From: Chloroflexota bacterium
Lineage (GTDB): Bacteria > Chloroflexota > Anaerolineae > UBA4142
Direction: 5' to 3'
Assembly (NCBI GenBank): GCA_016219275.1
Contig: JACRBM010000040.1
Span: forward strand, 186,001-250,000
Length of the DNA: 64,000 nt
The translations under genes and the position numbers were made by a program. Every line of letters begins with the position of its first letter. Position 1 is the stretch's first letter. The notes beneath the pieces were generated by a model, which worked only from the letters and a program-made list of their open reading frames with translations, ran no database searches and was not told the origin of the DNA. Positions 42,373 through 63,321 of this stretch are shown in pieces.

Positions 42373-44160
42373 ATGAATGCTCGCAAATTTTTCCTGATTG
42401 CCATGCTGTTCGTGTTGGCAATCGTGGCGGTGGCGTGCGCGACACCGACACCGACGCCGATGCCGATCCCGACACCAATCCCGCCGACCGCCGCGCCTAA
42501 GCCAACGGACGCGCCCAAAGCGACCGAAGCCCCCAAGCCAACCGTCGCGCCGACGAAAGCGGCTGAACCAACCAAGCCCCCCGCCGCGGCGTTCGACGTC
42601 AAAGCCGCGCTCGACAAGTATTTTTCCGCATTGCCGGATGGTTTCAGCACGATTCAACCCGCCGCGGTGAAAGATCAAATGGCGGCGACCAAGGTCTTTA
42701 TCCTCGACTTGCGCGAAGCGAACGAAGTCGCGACGGACGGGTACATTGACGGTTCGGTCGTGATTTCAGTTCGCTCGTTCTTGAAAAACTTGGATAAACT
42801 TCCCGCGAAAGATCAACCGATCATCACGACCTGCGCTGGCGGTCATCGCGGCGCGATGGCGATGGCAACATTGCAAATGCTTGGCTATACCAATGTCAAG
42901 AGTATGGCGGGTGGCATTCGCGGTTGGAAGACGGCGAACCTGCCAGTCGTAATGACCGGCACGCCTGCGATGCCGGTCGCGGGCAAAGCCCCCGAAGTTG
43001 ACAAGGACCTGTTTGCCGCGTTCGACAAGTATTTTTCGGCTTTGCCGGACGGATGGGGCACAATCCAAGCCACCGCCGCCAAAGACCAGATGGCTGCAAC
43101 CAAAGTCACCATTCTTGATGTGCGCGAAGCCAGCGAATTCGCGACGGGTTACATTGAAGGTTCACTCAACATCTCGATTCGTTCATTGTTGAAGAGCGAC
43201 AAATTGCCTAGCGACAAAGCGACCCCGATCATCGCGACCTGCGCGAGCGGGCATCGCGGCGCTATGGCAATGATGGCATTGCAAATGCTCGGCTATACCA
43301 ACGTCAAGGCGATGGTTAACGGCATCAATGCCTGGAAAGCCGCGAACCTGCCGGTCGTGGGCGGCGCGCCGGCTGCCGCCGCGTTCGATCTGAAAGCAAC
43401 CTTCGACAAGTACTTTGCGGCGTTGCCGGATGGTTTCGGCTTGATTCAGCCCGCCGCGATGAAAGACCAGATGGGCGCGACCAAGGTGTTCGTCCTGGAT
43501 ATGCGCGAAGCGAGCGAGATCACGACGAACGGTTTCGTCGAAGGCGCAGTCAACATTCCGACGCGCACGCTGATGAAGAATCTCGACAAACTGCCCGCGA
43601 AAAATCAACCGATCATCGTCATGTGCGGCAGTGGCGTGCGTAGTCCGTTGGGCATGGCATCGTTGCAACTCCTAGGTTACACCAACGTCAAGTCGCTCGC
43701 CGGTGGTTTCGGCGCGTGGAAAGCCGCGAACTTGCCGGTGGCTACTGGCACACCCGCCGCACCCGTTGCCGGTAAAGCGCCCGACGTCGACAAGGACCTG
43801 CTCGCCGCGCTCGACAAGTGGTTTACCGCGCTGCCCGATGGGTACGGTGGAGTCGCGCCCGCCGCGGCAAAAGATCAAATGGCGGCGACCAAGGTCACGT
43901 TGATTGATGTCCGTGAAGCGAGCGAAATCGCGAGCGGCGGCAAGATCGAAGGTTCGATCAGCATCCCAGTCCGCACGCTGATCAAGAGTCTCGACAAACT
44001 GCCCGCCGACAAAGCCGCGCCGATCATCGTCACCTGCGCGAGCGGACATCGCGGCATGTTCTCGATCATGGCTCTGCAGATGCTGGGTTACACCAACGTC
44101 AAGAACATCTCCGGCGGCGTGAACGCGTGGAAAGCCGCGAACCTGCCGGTCGTCCAATAA
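42373..44160 (+). CDS. Lipoprotein with four tandem rhodanese domains
   Basis: 595 residues from ATG 42373 (AAGGAGAAG upstream). The signal ends AIVAVACATPTPTP with a lipobox cysteine, then a Thr/Pro/Lys linker. Four repeats of about 130 residues follow, each starting ALDKYFSALPDG-like and closing with GG-x-x-x-WKxANLPVV. Active-site cysteines: CAGGHRG (codon 42832), CASGHRG (43240), CGSGVRS (43624), CASGHRG (44035). All four keep the cysteine. It probably shuttles sulfane sulfur outside the membrane next to the molybdenum reductase. Confidence 0.92.
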   Translation: MNARKFFLIAMLFVLAIVAVACATPTPTPMPIPTPIPPTAAPKPTDAPKATEAPKPTVAPTKAAEPTKPPAAAFDVKAALDKYFSALPDGFSTIQPAAVKDQMAATKVFILDLREANEVATDGYIDGSVVISVRSFLKNLDKLPAKDQPIITTCAGGHRGAMAMATLQMLGYTNVKSMAGGIRGWKTANLPVVMTGTPAMPVAGKAPEVDKDLFAAFDKYFSALPDGWGTIQATAAKDQMAATKVTILDVREASEFATGYIEGSLNISIRSLLKSDKLPSDKATPIIATCASGHRGAMAMMALQMLGYTNVKAMVNGINAWKAANLPVVGGAPAAAAFDLKATFDKYFAALPDGFGLIQPAAMKDQMGATKVFVLDMREASEITTNGFVEGAVNIPTRTLMKNLDKLPAKNQPIIVMCGSGVRSPLGMASLQLLGYTNVKSLAGGFGAWKAANLPVATGTPAAPVAGKAPDVDKDLLAALDKWFTALPDGYGGVAPAAAKDQMAATKVTLIDVREASEIASGGKIEGSISIPVRTLIKSLDKLPADKAAPIIVTCASGHRGMFSIMALQMLGYTNVKNISGGVNAWKAANLPVVQ

Positions 44161-47059: not shown

Positions 47060-47842
47060 ATGGACGATCTGCTGACCACCAAACAATTGATGGGTTTATT
47101 GAGCGTAGACCGCACGACGATCTATCGCATGCTGAACGATGGTCGCTTACCGGCGGTACGCGTCGGCGGACAATGGCGCTTTCCGCGCCAAGCCATCGAA
47201 AAATGGCTCGGCGAACAACAAGAACCCGCCGCAACGGATTCGGGTGCATCTATCGCGCCGCCGACAACGCCACATGCGACCATCGAAGTTTTGCCGGTCT
47301 ATTGTTTGCAACCGATTCAAGAAGTGTTCGCCCAGACGAGCGACGTGGGCGCAATCACAACCGATCTCAACGGCAAACCGCTCACGCCCGTCAGCAACTC
47401 GTGCGCGATGTGCAACTTGATTCTTGCGACAGAAAAAGGACGCGCGCGGTGCGCGGCATCGTGGGAAAAACTCGCCGACCAAGCGGAGAAACAACCGCGC
47501 TTGGAAAAGTGCCACGCCGGTTTGACCTACGCGCGCGGGCGCATCGTCGTTCAAGACGAATTCATCGCGATGTTTTTCGTGGGGCAATTCGTCGTGGACG
47601 ATCCAAAACCGCTGCGCGCGAAAACGCATCTAGCCCAGGTCGCGCGCGCGTGCGATGTGGATCCAAAAGAACTGACGCGCGCCGCGCAGAACATCCGCGT
47701 CCTCGAAAAAACTCGCGCCGAGCGTTTGCTTCATCTCTTGCAAATGGTCGCCGACACGTACTCGCACATCGGCGAAGAGCGACTCGATTTGGTCACCCGC
47801 TTGAAAAAAGTTGCCGAAATCGCGGGCGTCTCAACGGGATAA
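47060..47842 (+). CDS. Regulator with excisionase-type HTH and PocR sensory domain
   Basis: 260 residues. DLLTTKQLMGLLSVDRTTIYRMLNDGRLPAVRVGGQWRF is a MerR/Xis-like winged HTH (first 55 residues). After a Thr/Ala linker comes a PocR domain: VGAITTDLNGKPLTPVSNSCAMCNLILATEKGRARC and KCHAGLTYARGRIVVQDEFIAMFFVGQF. Its cysteines are compatible with metal or small-molecule sensing. It precedes an ArsR-type regulator by one base and the cytochrome/YeeE genes, so it may control them. Confidence 0.88.
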   Translation: MDDLLTTKQLMGLLSVDRTTIYRMLNDGRLPAVRVGGQWRFPRQAIEKWLGEQQEPAATDSGASIAPPTTPHATIEVLPVYCLQPIQEVFAQTSDVGAITTDLNGKPLTPVSNSCAMCNLILATEKGRARCAASWEKLADQAEKQPRLEKCHAGLTYARGRIVVQDEFIAMFFVGQFVVDDPKPLRAKTHLAQVARACDVDPKELTRAAQNIRVLEKTRAERLLHLLQMVADTYSHIGEERLDLVTRLKKVAEIAGVSTG

Positions 47843-47843
47843 C

Positions 47844-48170
47844 ATGGCTCAATCTATTTTCGATCTCCAAGCCGAACTATGCCAGGCGATGTCGAACGCG
47901 ACGCGCTTGCGCCTTGTCCACGAATTGCGCCAGGGTCCGCGTCGCGTCGGCGAATTGGCGCTTGCCGTCAATCTGGCGCAAGCCAAAGTGTCGCAACACC
48001 TGGCGATCTTGCGCACGCGTAACATTGTTCACGTCCAGCGTGAAGGCAACGAATCCATCTATCAAATCACGAATCCCAAAATCGAACAGGTCTGTGACTT
48101 GATGCGCGAAGTGTTAGCAGAACAAGCGGCGCAACGTTCGGAACTGATGCAAACGATGCAACAAAACTAG
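47844..48170 (+). CDS. ArsR/SmtB-family regulator
   Basis: 108 residues from ATG 47844, directly after the PocR gene. IFDLQAELCQAMSNATRLRLVHELRQGPRRVGELALAVNLAQAKVSQHLAILRTRNIVHVQREGNESIYQI is a complete winged helix of this family, with Ser-x-His before the recognition turn. The classical ELCVCDL metal site is absent; a cysteine lies in AELCQAM and another in VCDLMREV near the C-terminus. It could be a sulfur- or redox-responsive type like SqrR/BigR, which is inference. Confidence 0.9.
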   Translation: MAQSIFDLQAELCQAMSNATRLRLVHELRQGPRRVGELALAVNLAQAKVSQHLAILRTRNIVHVQREGNESIYQITNPKIEQVCDLMREVLAEQAAQRSELMQTMQQN

Positions 48171-48233: not shown

Positions 48234-48267
48234 GTGTCCAGGATTTTTTATAGGAGCGACGAAACGT

Positions 48268-49146
48268 ATGCGAAAGAAACACGTCGGATTTTTTCTGGTG
48301 CTGGCAATTCTGTTGGCGACCGTTGTCTTTATCGCCTATCCGCGACCGGCAGATGCGCAGTGCGGTTCTACCGCGTCGTCGTGCAAGAATTGCCATGAAG
48401 TGCAAAAAGCGATGCCGGTCAACGCGAAAGGCGCGTGGCATACCGCGCACGCGTTTGGCGATTTCTGCGCGTTCTGCCATTCCGGCAACACCAAGTCGAA
48501 AGATAAAACTGCGGCGCACACCGGCATGCTCGATCCATTCACCGATGTCAAGGGCGGCTGCCAATCGTGCCACCCGAACGATTACCTGGATCGCGCGAAA
48601 AAGTACGCCGACGCGCTTGGCAAAACGATTGGCGCCGGCTCTGGTTCCGGCACAACGACCGCGAGTGGCACGACGATGACCGCGGACGCCGGACCCTGTG
48701 GTCCTGCCGCACCTACCGGCGGTCAGACGATTGACCTCAACAAGGTGTACGCTGAACTCGACCAAGCCGCGCCCAATATTCTCGGCAACGCGATTTTGAT
48801 CGGGTTGATTCTTGCCGTCGCGTTCGTTCTCGCGGGACTCGTGTTTTATTACGAAAAACCTTTGCCGCGCGGCATCGCCGCGTTCCGTCAACTGCTCGCC
48901 ACGCCAGTCGCCGCGCCGGAAGGTGTCGTGACGCGTCCCGAACTAGGATCGTTGTTGCCTCTACTCTCGTCGAGCGATCCTGGGACGGTGCGCGCGGTGA
49001 CGCAACTCCTCTCCGACCGCGAGAACGGTCCGCGCATTTTGAAAGCGTTGAGTCATCTCGATTTGCGCGCGCTCGCGGAATTGGGCGAGAGCGATCAAAA
49101 GGCGCTCGCGTCATTGTTGACGCTGGCGAAAGAAATGAAGGCGTAA
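48268..49146 (+). CDS. Triheme c-type cytochrome with membrane anchor
   Basis: 292 residues from ATG 48268 (AGGAGCG upstream). A signal segment (HVGFFLVLAILLATVVFIAYP) is followed by three heme sites: CKNCH, CAFCH and CQSCH, in about 80 residues. A Gly/Thr linker leads to a second transmembrane helix (NAILIGLILAVAFVLAGLVFYY) and a soluble helical tail with ARM/HEAT-like segments (LLSDRENGPRILKALSHL). The hemes should face outside and the tail inside. It may feed electrons to the transporter or reductases next to it. Confidence 0.87.
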   Translation: MRKKHVGFFLVLAILLATVVFIAYPRPADAQCGSTASSCKNCHEVQKAMPVNAKGAWHTAHAFGDFCAFCHSGNTKSKDKTAAHTGMLDPFTDVKGGCQSCHPNDYLDRAKKYADALGKTIGAGSGSGTTTASGTTMTADAGPCGPAAPTGGQTIDLNKVYAELDQAAPNILGNAILIGLILAVAFVLAGLVFYYEKPLPRGIAAFRQLLATPVAAPEGVVTRPELGSLLPLLSSSDPGTVRAVTQLLSDRENGPRILKALSHLDLRALAELGESDQKALASLLTLAKEMKA

Positions 49147-49209: not shown

Positions 49210-49734
49210 ATGATGAAACTCTTGAAACAGAAAGAATGGTCGCCGTATCTTGCTGGGACGTTACTGGGTTTGGTGTACGTCATCAGCATCGCCGTCACCG
49301 GCATCATCCCCGGCGCGTCCGGCGCGTTTGAAAACATCGGGGGGTTGATTGCGCAGGTGCTCTATCCCGACTTGGTGAAGAACACGTACTTTCAATTCGT
49401 GATGCCACCTGGCATTACGACCGCCGTGATGATCTTACTTGGTATCATTGTCGGCGCGTTCGTCTCGGCGAAATTGTCCGGCGATTTCAAACTGCAAGCC
49501 GTGTCCGATCCGCAGTGGAAACGCGTGTTCGGCAACGCGATGTGGAAACGCTGGCTCGTGTTGTTTATCGGCGGCATCATTTTGGAATTTGGCGCGGGCA
49601 TCGCGGGCGGCTGCACAAGCGGATTGGCAATCGGCGGCGGCTTGTTCCTCGCGCCCTCGGCATTCATCTTTATCGCGGCGATGTTCATGTCCGGCATTCC
49701 GGTCGCGATGTTGATGTACTGGAGGAAATACTAG
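49210..49734 (+). CDS. YeeE/YedE (Sulf_transp) N-terminal half
   Basis: 174 residues. Four hydrophobic helices: YLAGTLLGLVYVISIAVTGIIPG, ITTAVMILLGIIVGAFVSAKL, WLVLFIGGIILEFGAGIAGGCTSGLAIGGG and PSAFIFIAAMFMSGIPVAMLM. The GGCTSG motif carries one of the three cysteines that relay thiosulfate in the structurally known YeeE. The starts ATG 49210 and 49213 are both close to GAGGTG. The second half is the next gene, one base downstream. Confidence 0.9.
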   Translation: MMKLLKQKEWSPYLAGTLLGLVYVISIAVTGIIPGASGAFENIGGLIAQVLYPDLVKNTYFQFVMPPGITTAVMILLGIIVGAFVSAKLSGDFKLQAVSDPQWKRVFGNAMWKRWLVLFIGGIILEFGAGIAGGCTSGLAIGGGLFLAPSAFIFIAAMFMSGIPVAMLMYWRKY

Positions 49735-49735
49735 A

Positions 49736-50290
49736 ATGTTTGAAATGATCTTTTCGCTCGTGATGGGTTTTGGTTTCGGCTTTGCGCTGCAAAAAGCCGG
49801 TCTCGGCAAGTACAACAAAATCGTCAACGTGTTTCGCTTTACCGATCTCGCCGTGCTCAAGTTTATGATGACAACGCTCGCCGTTTCGATGATTGGCGTG
49901 TTCGCGCTCAACTCGCTTGGCATCATCGCTCTGCCGAATATTCCGGCGACGTACGTCGTCGGCAATCTCATCGGCGGTTTGATTTTCGGCGTCGGCATGT
50001 CCGGCGCCGGCTTCTGACCGGGTACGTGCGCCGCTGGAAGCGGTCAAGGCAATCTCGATTACTTGATTCCTGGGATGCTCGGTTTCTTGACGGGCGCGCT
50101 GATCTTTGGCGCGGCATATCCGACGATCTATCCACCGATTAGCAAAATCATCAACCTGGGCAGCACGATCCTGCCCACCGCCCTCGATGTGAATTTGTGG
50201 TTGAGCATTTTGCTGTTCGTGTTGATCGCCGTCACGCTGTTCTACTTTTTGGAAAAGTTTGGGCAGTTGCGCCGCGACAAGGCGGCGTGA
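49736..50290 (+). CDS. YeeE/YedE C-terminal half with UGA in place of the conserved cysteine (candidate selenoprotein)
   Basis: 184 residues if the UGA at codon 94 (50015-50017) is decoded. The frame before it ends LIFGVGMSGAGF and after it runs PGTCAAGSGQGNLDYLIPGMLGFL to the true stop at 50290. In the family this site is the Cys of G(Y/F/W)CPGTC, a thiosulfate-handling residue. Helices: MIFSLVMGFGFGFALQKAGL, MMTTLAVSMIGVFALNSLG, YVVGNLIGGLIFGVGM, MLGFLTGALIFGAAYP and LWLSILLFVLIAVTLFYFL. GGAGG lies ten bases before the ATG. UGA exactly at a redox cysteine is the classic selenocysteine signature. The ion carried could be thiosulfate or a selenium analogue. Confidence 0.87.
50015..50048 (+). 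promoter_or_regulatory. UGA plus SECIS-like hairpin in the YeeE-type gene
   Basis: CCGCT (50031-50035) pairs with AGCGG (50039-50043) around loop GGA; TGACC at the UGA can pair with GGTCA (50044-50048). The loop begins with GG 18 bases after the UGA, as in the fdhF element. Confidence 0.7.
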
Positions 50291-50373: not shown

Positions 50374-52599
50374 ATGAGTGATCACGAAATCAAGGTAGGC
50401 GATACGTTTCATTGGGAGATGTCGCGCCGTCAATTCTTGGCGATGAGCGCGGCAACCGTTGGCGCGCTCGCGGTGGGCGCGATTCCGTTTACGCACAACT
50501 CGGGCGCGAAACCGGTGCGCGCGCAAAACTCGCACACGCCGCCGACCAAGTTTGATCGCGAAGTGTTCACATTGTGCGAGCAATGCGTGTGGCGGTGTGG
50601 CTTGCGCGCCAAAGTCGTCAACGGCAAGGTGTACAAACTCGACGGCAACCCGAACCATCCACACTCGAACGGCATGTTGTGCCCGCGCGGGCAAGCTGGC
50701 ATCGCCGCGTTGTACGACCCAGACCGTTTACAATTCCCGATGATTCGCGGAGGTGATCGCGGCAGTGGAATGTGGAAGCGCGTCACCTGGACTGAGGCGC
50801 TCGATTACGTCGCGGGCAAACTGCAAGCAATCAAGCAACAGTACGGACCCGAAGCGATGGTGTTCAGTTCGACGCACAACTTGTCCCAGGTGCAGTTTGA
50901 AAATCTCTTGCGCGCGTACGGCTCGCCGAATTACGGCACGCAACGCTCGCTCTGCTTCAACGCGATGATTGTCGCAAATCTGTTGACGTTTGGAATGCAA
51001 GAACCGGGGCGCGATTACAGCGCGGCGCAATACATCATTTATTCCGGACGCAATCTTGCCGAAGCGATTTCCAATTCCGAAACGCAGGATCTGATCGCGG
51101 CGATTGATCGCGGCGTGCGCGTCGTTCTGCTCGATCCGCGTTTTACCAAGACCGCGTCGAAAGCGACCGAGTGGTTGCCGATTCGACCGGGCGCCGATCT
51201 CGCGTTTTATCTCGCGATGTTGCACGTGCTCATCACCGAAAATTTGTACGCAAAAGAATTCGTCGCCAAGTTAACTGCTGGCTTTGACGAAGTTTCAAAA
51301 GCGGTCAAGCCGTACACGCCGGAATGGGCGGCGAGCAAAACTGAAATTCCGGCGGCGACGATTCGCCGCATCGCGCGCGAGTTTGCGGTTGCCGCGCCGC
51401 ACGCATTCATTCATCCCGGCTGGCGCACATCAAATTTCGTCAACTCGTTCCAAACCGAACGCGCGATGGCGATCATCAACGCGATCTCCGGCAACTGGGG
51501 CGAGCCAGGGGGATTTTTTGCCGGCGCAGGTGAAGAAGGCGGCGGGTTAGGCGCGATTCCGCAACCGCCGTACCCGCGCGCGTCGGCGTTGCGTCTCGAC
51601 GGTGTGCCGTGGAAGTATCCGCTCGTCCCGCTCGAAATCGGCGTGTATCAGGAAATGCGCGACGCGATTCTCGCGGAGAAACCGTACCCCGCGCGCGGCT
51701 GGTTCGTGCATCGCCAAAATCCAATCGCGTCGCTGCCCGAACGACGCAAGACGCTGCAAGCGTTCAGCAAACTCGATTTCATCGTGACGGTAGACACGAC
51801 GATGAACGATACCGCGTGGTTCAGCGATGTCGTTTTGCCAGAGGCGACGTACCTCGAACGCTATGATCCACTCGCGGTCGTTGGCGACGGCGTGTTCATT
51901 CGCCAGCCCGTCGTGCCCGCGCTCGGCGAAAGCAAATCGGCGTTGTGGATTTTCAAAGAACTCGGCACGCGGCTGGGTCTGCAAGATTATTTTCAATACA
52001 AGGACGAGGAAGATTACATTCGCCAACAACTCAAGCCGCTCGGCATTTCGCTCGAAGAGTTGAAAGCGAAAGGGCATTATCGTCCGCCAAGCCATGAAGC
52101 GGCAACGGAAGAATTCAAATTCAACACACCGAGCGGCAAGATCGAATTATATTCCGCGTCGCTCGCGAAAAATAACTTTGCGCCTGTCCCGGTTTGGCAA
52201 GAACCGCCCGCGCCGCCCGCCGATCAATTTTATCTGTTGACCGGCAAGGTCGCGCAGCATACCCAGTTCGGCACGCAAAACAACAAACTTTTGTCCGAAC
52301 TGTTCCCGGAAAATGTCGTGTGGATTCACACCAAGCCAGCCGCCGAGCGCGGCATCAAAGATGGCGACTGGGTCTACGTCGAAAGCACCGCCGGCAAAAT
52401 CAGGATCAAGGCAAACGTCACCGAAGCGATTCGCCCCGACTGCACGTACATGACGCCTGGGTTTGGTCACTTGTCGAAAGGGAATCGCGTATCGTATGGC
52501 AAAGGCGCGAGCGATTCGGATATCCATTTGACCTTCACCGACCCGGCGAGCGGCGGGCAAGCGTTGTCGCAAACGTTCGTCAAAGTGTACAAGGCGTGA
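50374..52599 (+). CDS. Tat-exported molybdopterin oxidoreductase, PsrA/PhsA-like
   Basis: 741 residues from ATG 50374 (GGAG upstream). Tat signal MSRRQFLAMSAATVGALAVG. Cys68, Cys71, Cys75 and Cys103 (LCEQCVWRC, MLCPRGQAG) ligate the 4Fe-4S cluster; Cys194 in RSLCFNAM is the likely molybdenum ligand. The C-terminal domain has YMTPGFGHLS. No in-frame stop. It forms a three-gene operon with a PsrB-like ferredoxin and an NrfD-like membrane subunit, the arrangement of polysulfide, thiosulfate or tetrathionate reductases, or the reverse sulfite-oxidising enzymes. The exact substrate is open. Confidence 0.9.
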   Translation: MSDHEIKVGDTFHWEMSRRQFLAMSAATVGALAVGAIPFTHNSGAKPVRAQNSHTPPTKFDREVFTLCEQCVWRCGLRAKVVNGKVYKLDGNPNHPHSNGMLCPRGQAGIAALYDPDRLQFPMIRGGDRGSGMWKRVTWTEALDYVAGKLQAIKQQYGPEAMVFSSTHNLSQVQFENLLRAYGSPNYGTQRSLCFNAMIVANLLTFGMQEPGRDYSAAQYIIYSGRNLAEAISNSETQDLIAAIDRGVRVVLLDPRFTKTASKATEWLPIRPGADLAFYLAMLHVLITENLYAKEFVAKLTAGFDEVSKAVKPYTPEWAASKTEIPAATIRRIAREFAVAAPHAFIHPGWRTSNFVNSFQTERAMAIINAISGNWGEPGGFFAGAGEEGGGLGAIPQPPYPRASALRLDGVPWKYPLVPLEIGVYQEMRDAILAEKPYPARGWFVHRQNPIASLPERRKTLQAFSKLDFIVTVDTTMNDTAWFSDVVLPEATYLERYDPLAVVGDGVFIRQPVVPALGESKSALWIFKELGTRLGLQDYFQYKDEEDYIRQQLKPLGISLEELKAKGHYRPPSHEAATEEFKFNTPSGKIELYSASLAKNNFAPVPVWQEPPAPPADQFYLLTGKVAQHTQFGTQNNKLLSELFPENVVWIHTKPAAERGIKDGDWVYVESTAGKIRIKANVTEAIRPDCTYMTPGFGHLSKGNRVSYGKGASDSDIHLTFTDPASGGQALSQTFVKVYKA

Positions 52600-52643: not shown

Positions 52644-53201
52644 ATGGCATCAGAAAATAAACGACGCTGGGGATTTGTGATCGAGGTCAAGCGGTGCATT
52701 GATTGTAAAGCGTGCATGGTCGCGTGCGAAGTTGAAAATGCCGTACCGCTGGGCAAACATCGCAACTGGATCGGACGCATCGGACCGACCGGCACATTTC
52801 CAAACCTGGGTTTGAAATTCGAGCCGGGCAATTGTATGCACTGCGAAAATCCGCCGTGTATGCGCGTGTGTCCGACCGGCGCGACATATCAGCGCGAAGA
52901 TGGACTCGTGCTCGTGGACTATGACAAGTGCATCGGTTGTCGTTACTGCATGCAAGCATGCCCGTACGATGCGCGCTATGTGGATCACGAACACGGTTAC
53001 GTGGACAAGTGCACTTTTTGCGTCCATCGTCTCGACGCCGGACAACCGCCCGCGTGCGTCGAAACGTGCGTCGGCGGCTCGCGCCACTTTGGCGATCTAA
53101 ACGATCCGAACAGCGAGGTCTCGAAATTGCTCGCGACGCGCGATCATTACGTTGTGTACGAAGAAGCCGGGACAGAGCCGAAGATTTTCTACGTTTCATA
53201 A
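52644..53201 (+). CDS. 4Fe-4S electron-transfer subunit, PsrB/PhsB-like
   Basis: 185 residues without a membrane segment. VKRCIDCKACMVACEVEN, GNCMHCENPPCMRVCPTGA, DKCIGCRYCMQACPYDARY and DKCTFCVHRL...CVETCVGGSRHFGDL carry the cysteines for four clusters. It matches the middle subunit of CISM complexes in length. The ATG follows GTGAGGAAG. Located between the molybdenum subunit and NrfD. Confidence 0.93.
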   Translation: MASENKRRWGFVIEVKRCIDCKACMVACEVENAVPLGKHRNWIGRIGPTGTFPNLGLKFEPGNCMHCENPPCMRVCPTGATYQREDGLVLVDYDKCIGCRYCMQACPYDARYVDHEHGYVDKCTFCVHRLDAGQPPACVETCVGGSRHFGDLNDPNSEVSKLLATRDHYVVYEEAGTEPKIFYVS

Positions 53202-53285: not shown

Positions 53286-54272
53286 ATGGAACAAATTGAA
53301 TGGAACTTGCTTGTCGTCAATTATCTTTTTCTCGCCGGCTTGAGCGCGGGCGCGTTTGCGATTTCGAGTTTCGCGACGTACATCGGCGGACCGCACTTTA
53401 GGCGCGTCGCGCGCATCGGCGCGCTCATCGCGCCGTTCCCGGTCGCACTCGGTGTCGGCATTCTCGTGCTCGACCTGGGACGACCGCTCGCGTTTTATAA
53501 TTTGTTTCTCACCGTGCAATTCACCTCGCCCATGTCTATTGGCTCGTGGTTACTAACTGGTTTTATCTTTTTGGCGCTGGCATACGCCGCGCTGTGGTTG
53601 CCCGCGCCGTTCGATAATTTGTTGCGCGTTCCCAGCCGCGCGCACCTGCGCGATTTCTCGCGCTGGACACCGCTCGCGCAAAATACGATTCGCCGCTGGC
53701 GTGCGATTCTCGCCGCGATCGGTTTTCCGCTCGCGCTCGGCGTCGGCATCTACACCGGCATCTTGCTCGGCGCGATTCCGTCGCGACCGTTTTGGAATAC
53801 GCCGATGGTTGCGCTACTATTTCTGTTCTCCGCGATGTCGTCCGGCACGGCGACGGTGTTGCTCGTCACCGCGCTGCTTGGCACACGACACGAACACGGG
53901 TACGAAGAGGAACGCCGTCTGCTCGTTTCGACCGACGTGGTTTTGATTGTGCTCGAAATTTTCATGCTCGTGCCATTCCTCCTGCATCACGCGCTCTCGA
54001 CGTGGAGTTCCGCGTCGTCCATCGAATTGATCCTGGGTGGCAAGTATACGCTCTGGTTCTGGATCGGCGTCATCGTGCTCGGCATTGTGTTGCCCTTGTT
54101 GATCGAAGCGTACGAATTGTTCCCGGTCATTTTGAAAGAAGGTGCGGCGCGTTACAGTCTCGCGTTGAGCGCAGTCTCGGCGGTGCTTGTACTCGTCGGC
54201 GGATTCATTTTGCGTTTTGTGTTTGTGTATGCCGGGCAAGCGTCGCATTTTTTGCCGCTGGTGGAGCGGTGA
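53286..54272 (+). CDS. NrfD/PsrC-type quinone-interacting membrane subunit
   Basis: 328 residues from ATG 53286. About eight to nine hydrophobic helices, starting LLVVNYLFLAGLSAGAFAISSF and ending AVSAVLVLVGGFILRFVFVYAG. The typical NrfD features LGVGILVLDLGRP in the second-third helix loop and RPFWNTPMVALLFLFSAMSSGTA in the middle are present. It connects the molybdenum/ferredoxin pair to the quinone pool without heme. Confidence 0.93.
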   Translation: MEQIEWNLLVVNYLFLAGLSAGAFAISSFATYIGGPHFRRVARIGALIAPFPVALGVGILVLDLGRPLAFYNLFLTVQFTSPMSIGSWLLTGFIFLALAYAALWLPAPFDNLLRVPSRAHLRDFSRWTPLAQNTIRRWRAILAAIGFPLALGVGIYTGILLGAIPSRPFWNTPMVALLFLFSAMSSGTATVLLVTALLGTRHEHGYEEERRLLVSTDVVLIVLEIFMLVPFLLHHALSTWSSASSIELILGGKYTLWFWIGVIVLGIVLPLLIEAYELFPVILKEGAARYSLALSAVSAVLVLVGGFILRFVFVYAGQASHFLPLVER

Positions 54273-62571: not shown

Positions 62572-63321
62572 ATGCCGGCGTTGTGGCTCGACCTGATGCT
62601 GGGTTTTGGTATCGGCTTGTCGCTGGGATTGCTCGGCGGCGGCGGCTCGATTCTCACCGTGCCGGCGTTGGTGTACCTCGTCGGGCAATCGCCGCAAGCT
62701 GCCATCACGACCTCGCTCGCGATTGTCGGAGCGAACAGCGCACTCGGCGCGACGTTTCATCACGCGCAAGGCACGCTCAATTGGCGCGTCGCGGTAATTT
62801 TCGGCGGCGCGGGGATGCTGGTCGCGTAATTTGCCGCGGGAGTATCGAAATTTTTCTCGCCCGCGATGTTGATGGTCGCGTTCGCAATCCTTATGCTCGT
62901 CGTCGGCGCAGTAATGCTCGTACGCCGCGCGGCGACGCCGCGCGCAACCGCGCCGAACTGGACATTGATCATCGCGAGTGGCGCCGGCGTTGGCTTGCTC
63001 ACCGGCATCCTGGGTGTCGGCGGCGGTTTTCTAATCGTGCCCGCGTTGGTGATGCTCGTCGGCTTACCGATGAATCAAGCGGTGGGTACGTCGCTCGTCA
63101 TCATCGCCGCGAATAGCGTCGCGGGATTGCTGGGACATTTGAGCGGAAGTATGTTCGACGTGACGCTCACACTCACTTTCGTCGCGGCGGGTCTCGTCGG
63201 CGCGTTCGCCGGCGCGCGTCTCGCGCATCGCATTTCGACGGATCGCCTGCGCCAAGTGTTTGCGACGTTCGTCATCGTGTTGGCGCTGTTCTTGCTCTTT
63301 GACAATTTTATTGTTGGATAG
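62572..63321 (+). pseudogene. TauE/SafE (TSUP) sulfur-anion permease interrupted by an in-frame TAA
   Basis: The frame encodes MPALWLDLMLGFGIGLSLGLLGGGGSILTVPALVYLVG, typical TSUP first half, up to GAGMLVA, then TAA (62827-62829), then FAAGVSKFFSPAMLMVAF and the second half (GAGVGLLTGILGVGGGFLIVPALVMLVG) to 63321, all in one frame. A Tyr codon is expected at this place. Without the stop it would be 249 residues, a normal length. This is a nonsense change, a sequence error, or two separately made halves. Confidence 0.8.

Follow-up and report, generated by a model that had tools for sequence, protein, structure and literature searches.

We found that pmpB, a half-transporter gene of the YeeE/YedE superfamily in a Chloroflexota genome, carries an in-frame UGA at codon 94 that is most likely read as selenocysteine (Sec) through SelA, SelB, SelC, SelD and a hairpin following the codon, and that PmpB would make up, together with the neighboring PmpA, a two-piece YeeE-type sulfur channel. 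Judged from sequence comparison, we would assign this combined reading a probability of roughly 0.88, and the narrower proposition that pmpB encodes a true selenoprotein appears to us close to certain. The gene lies in a stretch of 64,000 nucleotides, hereafter the window, from a draft genome of 6.16 Mb (97.9% complete, 107 contigs); the features discussed below are compiled in Table 1.

Table 1. Predicted features of the pmpB locus (coordinates of the window)
Feature	Position	Strand	Basis or remark
ArsR/SmtB-type repressor, two cysteines, candidate sulfane-sulfur sensor	47811..48170	+	
Membrane-anchored protein, three CxxCH motifs, conserved upstream partner	48244..49146	+	
PmpA/YedE1-type half transporter, GGCTSG cysteine (StTsuA Cys293)	49210..49734	+	PF04143 169-307, alignment to 6leo
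PmpB/YedE2-type half transporter, predicted selenoprotein, 184 aa with Sec94	49736..50290	+	PF04143 profile, readthrough, orthologues
In-frame UGA, predicted Sec94, aligned to StTsuA Cys91 (second relay cysteine)	50015..50017	+	Alignment, homologue codons
SECIS-like hairpin GCCGCT-GGA-AGCGGT	50030..50044	+	Loop 18 nt after UGA; weak alone by energy
PsrA/PhsA-like molybdopterin oxidoreductase, TAT signal	50374..52599	+	Best solved match Thermus PsrA 2vpw, E 3e-150
PsrB-like 4Fe-4S subunit	52644..53201	+	
PsrC/NrfD membrane anchor	53292..54272	+	PF03916 188 bits

Reading frame and family of PmpB

The frame opens with an ATG at 49736, 5' of which lies a GGAGGA motif (49721-49726), and closes with the terminal stop TGA at 50288-50290; on re-reading the sequence, the sole internal stop was the TGA at codon 94, as the initial annotation had described, and readthrough translation yielded the same surrounding residues, GVGMSGAGF-U-PGTCAAGSG. 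The readthrough product matches positions 10-154 of the PF04143 (Sulf_transp) profile with 72.8 bits against a cut-off of 27, and the product of the upstream gene covers positions 169-307, so that one gene corresponds to the N half and the other to the C half of a YeeE-type channel. In a phmmer alignment, counted from the alignment ends, codon 94 falls exactly on Cys91 of S. thermophila TsuA (StTsuA), the second of its three relay cysteines, in agreement with the earlier statement that YeeE family members have a cysteine at this site (CPGTC). The GGCTSG motif of PmpA falls on StTsuA Cys293, the relay cysteine that comes first, in the 6leo alignment, a weak match (E 0.14) in which the AGGC nevertheless lines up, and the motif cysteine is present in each of the 78 loci in which this motif could be located. 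At the position of the third relay cysteine, C22, the window PmpB has no cysteine, residue 24 being glycine. Both NCBIfam TsuA models remained below their cut-offs (38.4 bits vs. 400 and 28.5 bits vs. 645), as did TIGR04112, the YedE selenium transporter model (19.2 bits vs. 200), and no NCBIfam model matches the Sec form of PmpB above its cut-off. An AlphaFold model of the PmpB half alone was poor (pLDDT 56).

The relay order of the TsuA cysteines, which line the transport path, has been described (PMC11073785), and PmpB has been identified as the half with Cys91 (PMC11582611). TsuA/YeeE (PDB 6leo, 8k1r) belongs to the same superfamily, with U94 equivalent to C91 and the PmpA cysteine to C293, but TsuA carries its three relay cysteines on one polypeptide, whereas here we have two polypeptides, no C22-like residue and a predicted Sec at the second site. 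Also related are PmpA/PmpB of Serratia (PMC11582611), likewise encoded as N and C halves by separate side-by-side genes with one key cysteine each, and YedE1/YedE2 of Cupriavidus (PMC10812762; COG2391), two adjacent half proteins that constitute a zero-valent sulfur transporter. The pair described here differs from these in three respects: 1) only here is the key residue of PmpB predicted to be Sec; 2) the halves are about 175-185 residues long, compared with about 130 in the Serratia and Cupriavidus pairs; 3) the neighboring genes form a Psr-type operon, in contrast to the persulfide dioxygenase found with the Serratia/Cupriavidus type.

Alternation of UGA and cysteine codons

To survey homologues, we scanned one genome per species with the first 93 residues of the window PmpB, a query in which codon 94 could not bias the search. 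The scan returned 80 loci, nearly all from Anaerolineae/Chloroflexota, and the codon-94 site was TGA in 49, TGC in 28 and TGT in 3, with no other codon seen. The alternation of Cys and UGA that the initial annotation had predicted is thus present, and the 31 cysteine homologues are the very kind whose lack it had named as evidence against its reading. On a maximum-likelihood tree built without the codon-94 column, nine changes between UGA and Cys are needed, at least six of them forced by well-supported branches, and the window clade consists of six members, all with UGA; the rows in the UGA/Cys and hairpin counts are related rather than independent, and p-values from them would overstate independence. 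Within the window clade, codon comparison gave a dN/dS of 0.03-0.23 on the 3' side of the UGA, similar to the 5' part, showing that coding selection continues beyond the UGA at the same strong purifying level.

In Bacillota, the same-site UGA was found in all eight close homologues with conserved neighbors (two of the eight genomes apparently being already counted among the 80 loci), and seven of these short loci also showed a PsrA-like gene. Bacillota homologues that are more distant and lie outside the operon have Cys wherever the motif is readable. Among plasmids, a search returned three homologues only, all of them distant (33-36% identity). The Sec motif reads FUPGT in the window and [FYT]UPGT across the set. 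Three Bacillota sequences (L193-L195) have an altered motif, TUPGTLITGC, with the cysteine at +4 gone and another at +8. Cys98 accompanies all 50 UGA forms of the first set vs. 21 of 31 Cys forms, and was considered as a resolving cysteine for Sec94, an idea we rejected as it fails in these same Bacillota sequences.

These counts bear on the possibility that the internal TGA is a sequencing or assembly error, or that pmpB is a pseudogene through nonsense mutation. The genome is a draft, and another gene in the window does look broken, namely that of a TauE/SafE-type sulfite exporter (62572-63321, + strand) with an in-frame TAA at 62827-62829, itself a pseudogene or an assembly error. Against this, TGA recurs at this codon in 49 of the 80 homologues as well as in the eight Bacillota, TAA or TAG never does, purifying selection is strong downstream of the UGA and the operon is intact; since the identical TGA occurs in dozens of separate genomes, a sequencing error is untenable, and we regard this whole explanation as exceedingly improbable.

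A hairpin that tracks the UGA

Bacterial SECIS (bSECIS) elements are hairpins with a G in the first two loop positions, located 16-37 nt after the UGA. The initial annotation had pointed to a CCGCT/AGCGG hairpin with loop GGA; it is present, with CCGCT at 50031-50035, GGA at 50036-50038 and AGCGG at 50039-50043; the spacer between the UGA and the five-pair stem is 13 nt, that between the UGA and the loop 18 nt, and a G50030-T50044 pair would extend the stem to six pairs. At -7.9 kcal/mol, the window hairpin is no more stable than synonymous-codon shuffles (z about 0) and likewise no more stable than dinucleotide shuffles. As this hairpin by itself is weak by energy, its weight comes from the family. 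Because comparing the energy of single hairpins with dinucleotide shuffles gave uninformative z-scores, we relied on synonymous-codon shuffles and on the contrast between UGA and Cys genes, scoring a hairpin when its stem reached at least 5, a GU pair counting half, and its loop of 3-4 nt, with G as first and second base, lay 16-37 nt beyond the codon.

By this measure, the bSECIS search proposed earlier found a hairpin specific to UGA genes, being present in 48 of 50 of these vs. 3 of 31 Cys genes, with the loop mostly at 18-19 nt. Mean local folding energy was -11.6 kcal/mol in UGA genes vs. -7.4 kcal/mol in Cys genes, and the mean z against synonymous-codon shuffles was -1.55 vs. +0.31, only the UGA genes being more stable than their shuffles. 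The hairpin occurs in two registers, one with loop GGU, GGC, GGG or GGA at 18 nt and the other with loop GGUC at 19 nt where the serine is TCC. Compensatory changes were seen at the loop-closing pair (C-G, U-A or A-U) and at pair 19-27 (G-C or A-U), the loop always starting with GG; they are clearest in Bacillota L193 and L194. The three hairpin-bearing Cys genes include L109, whose protein is near-identical to that of its sister L105; the site is TGT in the former and TGA in the latter, with the hairpin intact in both, and L109 looks like a very recent change from Sec to Cys.

The hairpin also speaks to a split-gene arrangement, whereby a short protein would end at the UGA and translation of another would restart at TTG 50063. 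An open reading frame from this TTG to 50290 does exist, but a restart there would leave out both the invariant PGT(C) motif and the segment conserved across codon 94; furthermore, the alternative codon at the site is always Cys, and the hairpin sits between the UGA and the putative restart and tracks the UGA. We consider such an arrangement extremely unlikely. Taken together, codon counts, dN/dS, the Bacillota homologues and hairpin covariation led us to reject sequencing error, pseudogene and restart alike.

Selenium machinery of the genomes

A search for the sel genes, another check called for at the outset, located all four in the window genome: tRNA-Sec (SelC) at 70.6 bits against a cut-off of 47, SelB at 335 bits, SelA at 585 bits and SelD at 366 bits. 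Sec is common near the start of SelD, and the SelD of this genome (L069) has its own in-frame UGA near the start (CAGUASK); with the SelD gene itself containing UGA, the cell is probably already dependent on UGA decoding. Full SelA was found in 18 of 20 genomes with the UGA form (plus one fragment) vs. 25 of 30 with the Cys form. No SelA was seen in one draft genome with the UGA form (L075), and five of the genomes lacking an intact SelA have the Cys form, in line with expectation. As SelA also occurs in 25 of the 30 Cys-form genomes, the machinery does not predict whether the Sec or the Cys form is present. Thus, codon alternation, sel genes and a UGA-specific bSECIS-like hairpin were all found, and the selenocysteine reading first proposed for pmpB has held up, with none of the results that had been named as contradicting it being encountered.

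Other predicted Sec sites in the superfamily

One-piece YeeE homologues in L032-L036 and L152-L156 have a UGA at QRGRF-U (QCGNF-U in one of them). This UGA lies in the column of StTsuA Cys22, the third relay cysteine, and was found in five genomes that belong to the same family as the window genome; Asp replaces Cys293 in these proteins (GGDN or AGDN), which are absent from the window genome, and a cysteine homologue (L157) reads RGRFC. By its sequence, the one-piece UGA is a second, separate predicted Sec site in the superfamily. Among PmpB-rhodanese fusions, two of the 20 read (L167 and L170) have a UGA at the Cys91 column, the rest having Cys, and a hairpin, GGUAGC-GGUC-GCUACC, follows the UGA in the fusion.

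Operon and candidate substrate

The gene order [ArsR-type repressor]-CxxCH membrane protein-PmpA-PmpB-PsrA-like-PsrB-like is kept in nearly all loci and is shared by UGA and Cys forms, the link between PmpAB and Psr being what is conserved at these loci. The PsrA-like product scores 605 bits with the PhsA equivalog model, whose cut-off is 694. In its three kinds of subunit and its TAT signal, the downstream complex corresponds to PsrABC polysulfide reductase (Thermus, 2vpw); to our knowledge, there is no known Psr operon with a Sec-containing PmpAB pair. Further downstream lie cytochromes, a Rieske protein and TauE, and upstream of the sulfur operon is a protein (42373-44160, + strand) with four rhodanese domains in a row and a signal-like N terminus. 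The operon contains no YeeD/TusA; elsewhere, the window genome encodes just one TusA, which could accept sulfur in the cytoplasm.

The initial annotation had favored an importer of sulfur oxyanions or of selenium. Import of thiosulfate or another sulfur oxyanion by a genuine Sec-PmpB/PmpA pair, serving assimilation rather than respiration of S0, is conceivable in that thiosulfate is the substrate of TsuA, the homologue of known structure (PMC11073785), and that the downstream enzyme resembles a thiosulfate/polysulfide reductase. However, the PmpB product falls far short of both TsuA cut-offs, lacks the cysteine at the C22 position and is not accompanied by YeeD/TusA in the operon, and the tested two-piece relatives move zero-valent sulfur (PMC10812762). 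The oxyanion part of the earlier proposal thus stands as possible but less well supported, and we deem it the less probable alternative. The selenium part is not indicated. YedE (TIGR04112) has been proposed as a selenium transporter (PMC5322559), and a role of Sec-PmpB as a selenium sensor with selenium-dependent feedback on selenoprotein synthesis can be imagined, because full-length protein would be made only when selenium is present; yet the TIGR04112 score is a small fraction of its cut-off, the neighbors are sulfur redox genes with no sel genes among them, Cys forms occupy the same operon and deletion of yedE in Methanococcus did not clearly impair selenium use (PMC11097638). We therefore consider a role as selenium importer or sensor highly improbable. 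Sulfane sulfur rather than thiosulfate is, by analogy with the assayed relatives, somewhat favored as the substrate.

Discussion

Selenocysteine in the YeeE/YedE superfamily is not wholly new, as YeeE/YedE (PF04143) has been listed as a predicted selenoprotein family with motif GUxSG (WP_012471001.1; PMC13188914, PMC9312934). Like the window PmpB, the listed protein is a PF04143 member with a predicted Sec, but it has GUxSG in place of the [FY]UPGT seen here; GUxSG, which may correspond to either the C91 or the C293 position, occurs in none of the genes of our set. The open-licence literature yielded no description of a PmpB with Sec, of the operon around it or of Anaerolineae selenoproteins, though one may exist elsewhere; the Sec-PmpB subfamily, its [FY]UPGT motif and its operon thus appear undescribed in the literature searched.

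We infer the translation of the UGA, the complex with PmpA, the substrate, its direction and the benefit of selenium, with substrate and direction resting on relatives assayed elsewhere and on neighboring genes. Among these relatives, the two-piece YedE1E2 imports zero-valent sulfur, and both of its key cysteines are essential (PMC10812762). A role of Sec-PmpB in a sulfur relay seems to us probable. We surmise that a PsrABC-type enzyme outside the membrane may make or use sulfane (zero-valent) sulfur or polysulfide, that the PmpA cysteine would pick up the sulfur and hand it over to Sec94, and that Sec94 would hold it as a selenenyl-sulfide (Se-S) intermediate before passing it on to TusA or a similar carrier in the cytoplasm; with its low pKa and rapid exchange, the selenol would accelerate this hand-over or give it a bias. 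The ArsR-type repressor may sense sulfane sulfur, for which SoxR and sHdrR of Hyphomicrobium offer a precedent (PMC11582611; PMC12423496). More broadly, and only as a tentative idea to which we give slightly less than even odds, we postulate that Sec may have been recruited repeatedly into the YeeE substrate path, at Cys91 in PmpB and PmpB-rhodanese and at Cys22 in the one-piece proteins, giving a new selenium-dependent membrane sulfur relay with Se-S intermediates that would be wired to a periplasmic complex of the polysulfide/thiosulfate-reductase type.

Most known selenoproteins are redox enzymes, and a membrane sulfur channel with Sec in its conducting path would be unusual; placed at a sulfur-handling cysteine site, the Sec would give a known transporter type new chemistry at a key step. 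Close relatives that differ in Sec vs. Cys (for example L105/L109 and L086/L101) provide natural matched pairs for examining relay chemistry, and these bear on whether a nucleophilic chalcogen relay, with persulfide hand-over, or the hydrogen bonding proposed for TsuA is at work. The finding also reveals genes of a kind that will be split in two by standard annotation, and it would tie the sulfur metabolism of an uncultured, deep-branching Chloroflexota lineage to its selenium supply.
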